Shown: piece after piece, positions 31 to 2,453 of the stretch
Layout of the letters: each line of letters starts with the position of its first letter
Position numbering within the stretch: the first letter of the stretch is position 1
Source: Chloroflexota bacterium
GTDB lineage: Bacteria > Chloroflexota > Anaerolineae > Anaerolineales > Villigracilaceae
Direction of reading: 5' to 3'
Length of the DNA stretch: 16,777 nt
NCBI GenBank assembly: GCA_021796315.1
Contig: JAJYOH010000066.1
Location: forward strand, 1-16,777
Position numbers and translations under genes: made by a program
The notes under the pieces: generated by a model
Told to the model about the DNA's origin: nothing
Database searches by the model: none
Seen by the model: the letters and a program-made list of their open reading frames with translations, nothing else

Positions 31-1791
31 TCAGCAAACTTGTTGGGTCGGGATGGCCTGTTGCAAAGTCTGGCGGGAGGCTTCGAAGATCAGGCGGGCC
101 AGGTTGAAGGCAATCGAGAGCGTATCGCTGATGGTCATGGATTTAGCAGTGTTGGGTAGGCCAAAAGAACGGGAGCGTTTGAGCTGCCTGCGGGCTTGCG
201 TGGCGTTACGGCTCTCGGAGTAGGATTGCCTGCCGATGCGGAGTTTCCAGGTTTCGGAGCCGAATTGGGTATCGCGAGCCAGGCGAGTGGAGCCATCCGG
301 CAAGTCCAGACCAGTGGAGATGGAATATCCCAAGGGGTGCTCAGGCCCGGCAAAAGGGCAAGTGGTTCGGGATAGGTTGGCGGGCGCGCCGGGGATGTCT
401 GGTTCGGGTTGGTGAATGCATTTTTGGCGGCAGACCCATTTGAGCGTTTGACGCTGGTAATCATGGCCGTTACTGGAGAGGCGGTAGCCGTTGGGGCAAA
501 GCAAGATGCCGTTTTCGTCATAGCCGCGCTTCAGGCAGGTGTTGGGATCATCATCGTCTTTGGCATGCCAGGGGCAGATGGTGCGCAGGGCATGCAATTC
601 CTGGTAGACAAATCGCAGGATTTCGGGGTGGCCTTCACCGGCATCGCCAAGCAGTTCTCCAATTTTGAGTGTTGGGAAGCGTTGGCGCAAAGCCTGGAGG
701 CCGGGAATGGTGAGCAGGTGGTCATTGCGGTTAGCTGGGGTGCAGGGGCCAGTGAGCGGCCAAATGAGCGACAGCCGATCATCCACAAGGTTAAATGCTT
801 TGGATTTGTAGCCAAAATGATGCTTTGCGCGCGACTGAGTCTGAACCTGGTCACTCTTTGCCCGATTAGGGTTGTTTTTTCTGAGCTGGTTGGAGCCAGA
901 ATAGTAGACATAGGCGGCCTGCGGGTCGCGCCAGGCGGCAAAACGGCAGTGGCCCTGACATTCTGGCGTGTCGCATTGGCAGCCTTCTTTACCCGCTGCG
1001 CGGGCCGGGCAAGGTCGTTTGGGGCCGGGTTCCGAACAGGCGGGGACCTGATGACGGCAGATCATGTGAGAGCGGGAGGCAATCAGCTGGCAATCGGTGG
1101 AGACGGAGACGCCTTGTTCGGGTGGGTCGCCTGGGAAGGTGGAATGGGTGGGGATGAGTTGGTAAGCCATCAACCCTTGAACCAGGCTGGTCTGGCAGGC
1201 GGTGAACCAATCTGGCTTTGTCTCGCGAAAAGCCATCCGAAAAGTGGATGAGACGGGCAGTTCAGCCGGGTCGAATCCCAGGCGGGTACAGTAATCCTGT
1301 CCGCGAGTGGGTGAACGCAGTTCGCGGGCCAGACGTGCCCAGTCCCACTTTTGGTGGTGCGCGAGGAAGATGCCCAACCCCAGGCTGAGTGGGTCGAAAG
1401 GCGGCGGGCCGTATTGGCTGTGGAAGCGTTGCGCGAAGTAGGGCCGCCAGGGAGAAAAGTCACACAGGCGCAACATCAGGTCGAAGTCGTCCAAGCCCGA
1501 CAGGTCTTCGCCTTTGGCGGGCATAATCCACTGGTAGTGTGAGCGGCAGTGACGACCTGCCCAGGCGGGTGGTTCGCCTGGGGTGGGCAGCTTCAGCGGC
1601 AGGTGGGTACGGATCCTGTCCCAGTGGAACATCTCCACGAAATTGGGCAGTTGCAGCCGTCTTGCGCTGGCCGGAATCTCGCGCCCCACAGTCAGTTCGG
1701 CGCGAGTGGGGTTGCTCAAACCCTGGAAGGGCGAATTTGCCAGTTGAACGCTGGCCAGAATAGGGGTTGGCGGGATCCAGGTCAATTTCAT
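31..1791 (-). CDS. DDE transposase, IS1182-like, with Cys-rich inserts
   Basis: This 586-aa protein would cut and rejoin the ends of the element. Residues about 130-215 ([15 protein letters not shown] onward) resemble the N-terminal InsH/IS1182 transposase domain. A plausible catalytic triad is D233 (STDCQLIAS), D383 ([11 protein letters not shown]) and E526 ([15 protein letters not shown], followed by a short basic helix as usual after the last DDE glutamate). Two Cys-rich stretches interrupt the core: C252, C261, C271, C273, C278, C282, and a second set around 407-478. Both could bind zinc, as insertions in this family often do. The frame is uninterrupted, so the enzyme may be active. Its ATG overlaps the stop of the upstream sigma-like gene as ATGA, which implies translational coupling. 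The triad is assigned by eye, without an alignment. Confidence 0.75.
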
Positions 1792-2453
1792 TTTCGCCCC
1801 CCATAACTACGCTGCCATTTGTGGTTTATCTGCAGCGCCTGGCGGTAATGTTCCCGGCTGTCGTGCTCACACAAGCTGCGCAGGCGGATGGATAGGCCTG
1901 GCGTGCGCAACAAGAGCAGCGCTTGTTGGTAAATTTGGTGGATGCGCTGGCGACTGACACCCCGAGTTTCCCCAATTTCTGCGAAGGTCTGGGGTGGATG
2001 GCCATTCCAACCGCTATGCGCTTCCACAATCTGCCTGTGTGGCTCAGGCAGATTTGCCAATTCTGCTCCCAGCGCTTCGCGCACCTGCTCAGCCTGCCAG
2101 GCCTCGAGTACTTGCTGTCCCAGGTCTGCATTGTTCTCCGTTGTCAAGTACCCATCGTCTTTGGACACCCGTGCCACCAGGTTCCAAATCCGCAGCCGGA
2201 TGATCTGCCAGGCGAAGGTCGAAAAGCGCACCCCACGGTTTGGGTCGTAGTATTTGACTGCCAGCCAAAACCCGATCCGCCCTTCCTCTCTCAGCTCAAC
2301 GTACTCGGCCAGCCCAAACCGTTGCGCACGCGTTACCGCCCAGATCAGGTTTTCGTTCTCCAACAGCAGCGCTTTCAGACAGTCTTCGCAGCCTGCCTGT
2401 GCGCAGGCCAATCTTTCATCCCCGTCAGTTTGACAATACATTACAATATCCAA
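1788..2453 (-). CDS. Sigma-70-family-like protein encoded by the insertion sequence
   Basis: This 221-aa protein has the hallmarks of a sigma-70 factor without region 1. Residues about 34-95 match regions 2.1-2.4 ([22 protein letters not shown], then [16 protein letters not shown]). Residues about 126-185 match region 4, with the helix-turn-helix [20 protein letters not shown]. Region 3 is short and not recognisable. The N-terminus has four cysteines (C7, C17, C22, C25) that could bind metal, and the C-terminal tail is basic. The start is TTG, chosen because AAGGAGG sits 7 nt upstream of it. The gene overlaps the transposase start by 4 nt, so it appears to belong to the element. It might direct RNA polymerase to the element's own promoter, or act only as a DNA-binding regulator; neither is shown. 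Confidence 0.75.

Follow-up and report, generated by a model that had tools for sequence, protein, structure and literature searches.

A sigma-70-like gene and a DDE transposase gene form a conserved operon in an insertion-sequence family found mostly in Chloroflexota

IS10 and IS50 are protected against read-through by an inverted repeat that hides the ribosome binding site (RBS) only in transcripts coming from outside the element. Elements of the IS1182 family consist of a single transposase ORF and have no partner gene. In ISPpu9, a structure in the transposase mRNA is reported to hide the RBS, and an antisense RNA is proposed to open it (PMC8450116). IS21 is reported to encode, besides its transposase, a dedicated AAA+ ATPase (PMC11208146). 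The locus analysed here has in common with IS10/IS50 and with ISPpu9 (PMC8450116) that an RNA structure, here a predicted one, hides the RBS of a transposition gene. However, the hairpin in our case would guard a sigma gene, the transposase being reached through translational coupling alone. The combination of a transposase with a dedicated second protein is shared with IS21, but there this second protein is an AAA+ ATPase and not a sigma factor (PMC11208146). The original prediction was aware of no described family with this layout. Likewise, no insertion sequence with a sigma gene was described among the matches listed in our literature search, which covered titles and the beginnings of abstracts; as most subscription journals and ISfinder lay outside its scope, this is no proof of absence.

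The window, i.e. the whole stretch of DNA that was analysed, comprises 16,777 nucleotides. The element occupies one end of it, with the following features:

31-1791, minus strand: DDE transposase gene, ATG start, 586 aa, triad D233, D383, E526 (ORF)
1788-1791, minus strand: ATGA stop/start overlap, 4 nt common to the sigma and transposase genes (ORF list and inspection)
1788-2453, minus strand: sigma-70-like gene, TTG start, 221 aa (ORF and Pfam)
2452-2519, minus strand: predicted RNA hairpin whose 3' arm contains the Shine-Dalgarno (SD) sequence AAGGAGG and extends to the TTG start codon (inverted repeat I4 and fold)
2529-2538, minus strand: subterminal repeat GCAACTCAAG, second iteron (spaced in 22-bp phase with the two sites that follow)
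2551-2560, minus strand: subterminal repeat GCAACTCAAG, first iteron (repeat search)
2574-2591, minus strand: left terminal inverted repeat (TIR) GGGCAAGAGCAACAAGTC (matched to the left ends of relatives)

Both ORFs, the full-length transposase and the ATGA overlap were present as originally predicted. The term "fused" used at that time needs correction, as the two genes are joined by a translational overlap only. The outer left end of the element is at 2591, and the element is thus longer than the stretch named at first (31-2453). The copy in the window has no right end, as the contig starts 30 nt past the transposase ORF and the right TIR partner is off the contig.

A protein search yielded 1052 transposase relatives among 7999 candidates scored, despite which the family is almost entirely missed by Pfam and NCBIfam. 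When genome contigs were scanned with the transposase alignment, 12 loci were recovered: 11 from Chloroflexota MAGs (among them L007, which we place, as an assumption, in Aggregatilineales) and one from a Desulfobacterales MAG (L005). Eight of these 12 had a near-full transposase match (L001-L007, L009), and all eight carried a sigma ORF directly upstream; the transposase of L004 contains one in-frame TGA. The same alignment found nothing in the viral contigs searched, and the transposase had no match in the plasmids searched. In draws of whole genomes, the transposase alignments matched 3/400, 1/99, 7/150, 8/152, 1/154, 23/356 and 2/29 genomes; these draws overlap, and seven of the eight matches among 152 genomes are those of the 150-genome draw. 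Searches in the families of G001 and G009 gave a set of matches identical to that of the 150-genome draw, and in the family of G133 both genomes (2/2) were matched.

Loci were regarded as assessable when the transposase match started in the first 60 model positions, scored more than 100 bits and was preceded by at least 350 nt. In all 24 such loci, the window included, the transposase gene is directly preceded by a sigma gene in the same orientation; in four of them (L030, L076, L092, L096) this sigma gene is split, internally deleted or degraded. The later transposase profile, A3, was built from sigma-bearing loci and may therefore favour that branch. Loci outside the 24 lacked the 5' end of the transposase, had less than 350 nt upstream or scored at most 100 bits; two of these (L078, L029) have sigma matches, and the decayed L080 and the IS1182-like L085 and L086 have none. 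L087, below the score limit, has no sigma gene in the 1500 nt upstream of its transposase. This copy, on the reverse strand and cut by the contig end, has a transposase start at 1504 with its own SD sequence and a TIR-like GGGATTTCGAAGCAAAC, and it is a possible sigma-less derivative. Because of L087, the sigma gene is to be described as near-constant in the family but capable of being missing. The original prediction had proposed checking for co-occurrence of the pair with the same overlap and conserved ends; the pair occurs together in all 24 loci, and Chloroflexota account for 11 of the 12 loci of the contig scan. A consistent absence of the sigma gene beside homologous transposases, which it had named as a refuting outcome, was not observed in these 24, L087 being the one copy in that direction.

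The two proteins have also diverged together. For 19 pairs, distances between the sigma proteins and distances between the transposases are correlated (r = 0.70, a value reached by 0/9999 permutations). Taken separately, the near group gives r = 0.83 (n = 10, 1/9999 permutations) and the far group r = 0.82 (n = 9, 0/9999 permutations); identities fall to 29% for both proteins in the set. With transposase starts assigned by eye, the ATGA overlap was found in 15 of 23 loci inspected, and five more (L026, L073, L074, L075, L091) have an 11-nt overlap. In L030 the two genes adjoin without overlap of this kind, as TAATG, and in L007 they adjoin as TGA-G-ATG; L029 is too decayed for a reading. Since the linkage holds in 24/24 loci and the distances are correlated, the pairing of the two genes in the window is confirmed as real and not due to chance.

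The ends of the element are conserved within groups. The window's group has the terminal inverted repeats GGGATAGNGCAAYAAGTC; L026, L073, L074 and L091 have TIRs like GGGATTCGAAGCAG, and L071, L072, L076 and L095 have TIRs like GGGCTTGCGCAGCGAATG. In the 400 nt past the transposase stop, 9-mer repeats are most often spaced by 22 bp (10 of 20 loci), any other spacing occurring in five loci at most. Both ends could be located in 13 loci, and target duplications were read by eye from their flanks; L075 and L092, each with an unclear end, were omitted, as were others with a missing or masked flank. A 5-bp duplication is present in six of the 13 (L002 ATGCA, L003 CAGCG, L004 AAAAC, L006 ACCAA, L070 AAGCA, L026 GTTCG) and one of 6 bp in L007 (TTTGAA); in the other six (L005, L071, L072, L073, L074, L091) no duplication was seen. 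These sequence features show the gene pair to form a two-gene insertion-sequence family with TIRs and, in some relatives of the window copy, target duplication. In the window, a TIR-like GGGGTCGTGCAACAAATT lies at 2606-2623 on the plus strand, divergent to the left end of the element and 14 bp from it, and is perhaps the remnant of another copy.

The transposase has the hallmarks of a DDE enzyme: D233, D383 and E526 in window numbering, assigned by eye against the IS1182-like protein of L085, are identical in 19/19 aligned family members, as is a late K538. The window protein had no match in the Pfam scan and scored 25.2 bits against the NCBIfam model for IS1182 transposases, NF033551, whose curated cut-off is 270 bits. 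Among 40 relatives, 23 match NF033551 weakly (best E 1.9e-6) and four match Pfam DDE_Tnp_1 weakly (best E 0.0033); L074 reached 14.8 bits for NF033551, and the transposases of L071 and L072 did not match it at E <= 0.01. A profile built from seven family members could be aligned along most of its length with L085 (HHalign probability 96.4, E 1.4e-9), L085 itself scoring 68 bits for NF033551, and alignment A2 gave no match to the IS1182-type protein of L041. The likeness to the IS1182 family consists of the DDE triad with the late conserved K and of weak profile matches; the differences are the sigma gene of the present family and a score below the NF033551 cut-off. Filing the transposase as IS1182 was rejected on this cut-off (25 vs 270 bits), and we read it, from these comparisons, as a distant branch of an IS1182-like superfamily. 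The IS1182-like transposases at L085 (559-2340) and L086 (1387-2298, judged by likeness to L085) have no sigma match upstream and make a useful outgroup. An AF2 model of the transposase was poor (pLDDT 50.7) and was not used.

The original assignment of sigma regions 2 and 4 to the 221-aa protein was borne out by Pfam, Sigma70_r2 (31.7 bits) and Sigma70_r4 (36.2 bits) both exceeding their gathering scores. Region 2 spans approximately residues 33-94 and region 4 approximately residues 132-183, with cysteines N-terminal to them and a tail at the C-terminus. Both domains are above cut-off also in the distant copies L072, L074 and L026; L071 passed for region 2 only. A profile of 33 sequences matches regions 2 and 4 of RpoS and SigA in the PDB in stretches about 20 residues apart, so that there is no room for region 3. 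The AF2 model of the protein is of moderate confidence (pLDDT 70.5, pTM 0.46), and Foldseek matched it to sigma factors with a low global TM of 0.3-0.4. The protein search gave 46 sigma matches at E <= 1e-3, the last of which, P0046, resembles an ordinary sigma factor. Two sigma families of PHROGs were matched by the sigma-like protein and none by the transposase, and a phage search with the sigma-like protein gave no match. Used as the sole query against viral and genome contigs, the sigma protein found no relative, possibly owing to the strictness of short peptide patterns derived from a single sequence.

An alignment of 20 sigma-like proteins permits a residue-level comparison, for which the sigma-70 numbering and the roles of residues 403, 406, 407, 408, 427, 431, 433, 434 and 589 are our presumed assignment. 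In region 2.2, where residues for core binding are expected, the equivalent of position 403 is D/E in 19/20, that of 406 is Q in 16/20, that of 407 is E in 12/20 and A in 8/20, and that of 408 is G in 20/20. All 20 retain F427 and A431 from the FSTYA segment, 19 retain Q589 of region 4, and all 20 have lost W433-W434. Outside the usual sigma motifs, W63 and Y203 are invariant (20/20). With only regions 2 and 4 present, both Pfam domains and the RpoS/SigA matches, the protein resembles an ECF-sized member of the sigma-70 family. However, its best profile matches are the RpoS, RpoD and RpoH models and not named ECF models, and it differs further from ECF factors in the absence of W433/W434 (20/20), in its C-terminal tail, in the N-terminal cysteines found in part of the family and in being encoded inside an insertion sequence. 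In the close group (33 sequences), C17, C22 and C25 in window numbering are invariant and C7 is nearly so; in the wide set, C17 is kept in 10/20, C22 in 13/20 and C25 in 10/20. These cysteines are a possible metal site in part of the family.

The leader of the sigma gene is predicted to fold into a hairpin that hides the SD sequence. In the window, the fold has an energy of -32.6 kcal/mol (z -7.1 and -6.1, with 0/200 shuffles as good each time). Folding was extended to 21 leaders, L095 and L097 not being among them; in 20 of these, at least 6 of the 11 bases of the SD region pair with an upstream arm, and 19 have z <= -3.0 with at most 3/200 shuffles equally good (one in L007, two in L091, three in L076 and none in the remaining 16). 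For each of the first 10 leaders, 0/200 shuffles reach the observed fold energy. L073 forms a 10-bp stem, but its total energy is not better than that of shuffles (z = -0.6), and the fold of L026 has no SD hairpin (z -0.6). At stem offsets 3-7 from the SD core, pairing is present in 20/20 leaders (L026 excluded) with two-sided, compensatory changes at each offset, e.g. ACACC/GGTGT, ATACC/GGTAT and GATTCC/GGAATC; the pairs were taken from each leader's own fold and kinship is uncorrected. For 10 leaders, SD exposure was predicted at 0.00-0.31 if transcription begins at the TIR, and at 0.28-0.76 if it begins 40 nt before the start codon.

A promoter at which transcription would skip the first arm of the hairpin was sought as a TATAAT-like hexamer (at most one mismatch) whose predicted start site lies downstream of the first base of the 5' arm. 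Such a box is present in 8/20 leaders (L002, L003, L009, L070, L071, L073, L075, L092), compared with 2.35 leaders (sd 1.40) after dinucleotide shuffling and 0/300 shuffles reaching eight, a test that overstates the evidence because the leaders are related. In L092, the predicted start is only about 18 nt before the start codon. A TATAAT-like box upstream of the 5' arm occurs in two of the 20 (L070, L074), and a one-mismatch -10 box in the arm-skipping zone is absent in 12/20, the window included. A common -35 motif was looked for by eye in the leader table and not seen; L001 and L002 have TAGACA 19 nt before GACAAT and 17 nt before GATAAT, respectively, which could be usable by a host sigma factor. 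The hairpin hiding the SD and the TATAAT-like box skipping its first arm had both been missed in the original prediction.

What the sigma-like protein does has to be weighed against several alternatives. The idea of a host sigma gene that happens to lie beside an unrelated insertion sequence is almost certainly wrong: sigma genes are common, and a truncated ECF sigma gene adjoins the element in the window, but the linkage of 24/24, the position of the sigma gene between TIR and transposase and the 5-bp duplications outside the pair in 6/13 loci argue against it. A phage or host sigma gene placed there by chance was rejected on this linkage. Of the earlier interpretation, by which the sigma-like protein might free the element from host transcription or serve as a DNA-binding partner at its ends, there now stands a conserved sigma and transposase operon within one mobile element with conserved ends. 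The arrangement persists in distant relatives, so that transcription of the element may be under its own control or its movement may be tied to RNA polymerase. We favour the reading that the protein is a working sigma factor, which the sequence evidence leaves close to evenly balanced. The operon consists, in this order, of 5'-TIR, phased repeats, SD-hiding hairpin, sigma-70-like gene, overlapping DDE transposase gene and TIR-3'. Transcripts reading in from outside would carry both arms of the hairpin, and therefore the sigma gene and, through translational coupling, the transposase gene would stay untranslated; transcripts initiated by the element itself, from a promoter located at the 5' arm or within it, would lack that arm and be translated, by a logic like that of IS10/IS50. 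The sigma-like protein would be an ECF-sized sigma factor that joins the core RNA polymerase of the host and activates the promoter of the element, and once switched on the operon could keep up its own expression in different hosts. To this combination of a sigma factor serving the element's own promoter with read-through protection by the hairpin we give roughly a one-in-two chance. The kept region 2.2 and FSTYA segment, the presence of both domains, the 24/24 linkage and the correlated distances speak for a sigma factor, and A at position 407 in 8/20, the loss of W433/W434 in 20/20, the lack of a common -35 motif and L087 speak against it, as does L071 with its Pfam match for region 2 only. 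For the part played by the hairpin speak its presence in 20/21 leaders with two-sided changes in the stem, the predicted difference in SD exposure and the arm-skipping box in 8/20 leaders; L026 and L073, the 12/20 leaders with no such box and the upstream boxes of L070 and L074 count against it.

The main rival, possible but clearly less probable, is that the protein is a second transposition subunit whose region 4 helix-turn-helix reads the phased repeats and aids transposase assembly, core binding being lost or incidental. The translational overlap (ATGA in 15/23, 11 nt in five) could then serve a fixed stoichiometry, and the multi-site ends with 22-bp spacing in 10/20 right ends, the co-inheritance of sigma and transposase, the invariant W63 and Y203 outside the usual sigma motifs and the A at 407 in 8/20 would all fit. 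However, region 2 has no obvious use to a repeat binder and is nevertheless kept with F427 and A431 in 20/20; moreover, binding by the transposase alone explains multi-site ends, and L087 keeps a TIR-like sequence without a sigma gene. We are similarly doubtful of a constitutive brake, which is compatible with either role of the protein: transcripts would start upstream, and a small RNA, a protein or temperature would open the hairpin. The hairpin in 20/21 leaders, the 12/20 leaders without a one-mismatch -10 hexamer in the arm-skipping zone and the precedent of ISPpu9 (PMC8450116) favour such a brake; the arm-skipping TATAAT-like box in 8/20 leaders vs 2.35 in shuffles does not, nor does the upstream box in only 2/20. 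Intact sigma domains and the presence of only two genes per element would suit a passenger that alters host transcription for the persistence of the element and has no role in transposition. Passenger genes usually vary between related elements, and here the same gene is found in 24/24 assessable loci, mostly overlapping the transposase gene and diverging in correlation with it, which makes a passenger improbable. Hardly more probable is a complex in which the sigma-like protein would hold RNA polymerase and transposase together, so that movement or target choice would proceed via RNA polymerase and, in bacteria, be coupled to transcription initiation; yeast Ty3 and its transcription-factor target provide an analogy for such RNA-polymerase-linked transposition.

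A transposable element that retains its own sigma-like gene down to 29% protein identity would directly exemplify a minimal mobile element linked to RNA polymerase beyond ordinary host transcription. With two genes, defined ends and a defined leader, the element is a small testable system for the control of IS expression after entry into a new host, and possibly also informative on the coupling of transposition to transcription.

Some further observations concern individual copies and the surroundings of the element. One contig of genome G987 contains three divergent copies (L071, L091 and L095, the flank of the last being partly N). In L082, one ORF (2-526, minus strand) matches the N-terminus of the sigma protein and then the middle part of the transposase, and this is probably an internally deleted copy. 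The neighbouring genes in the window (3557-16591) encode a histidine kinase, a beta-propeller protein, a P-type metal ATPase with an HMA domain, an acyltransferase, a sortase and an L,D-transpeptidase, together with a Met/Gly-rich protein and a response regulator-like ORF (4465-5193), both recognized from their translation only. The truncated ECF sigma gene beside the element (2645-3181, minus strand, 178 aa) has region 2, and its homology ends near residue 146 with the loss of region 4; an insertion or rearrangement probably took place near 2743 at an earlier time.
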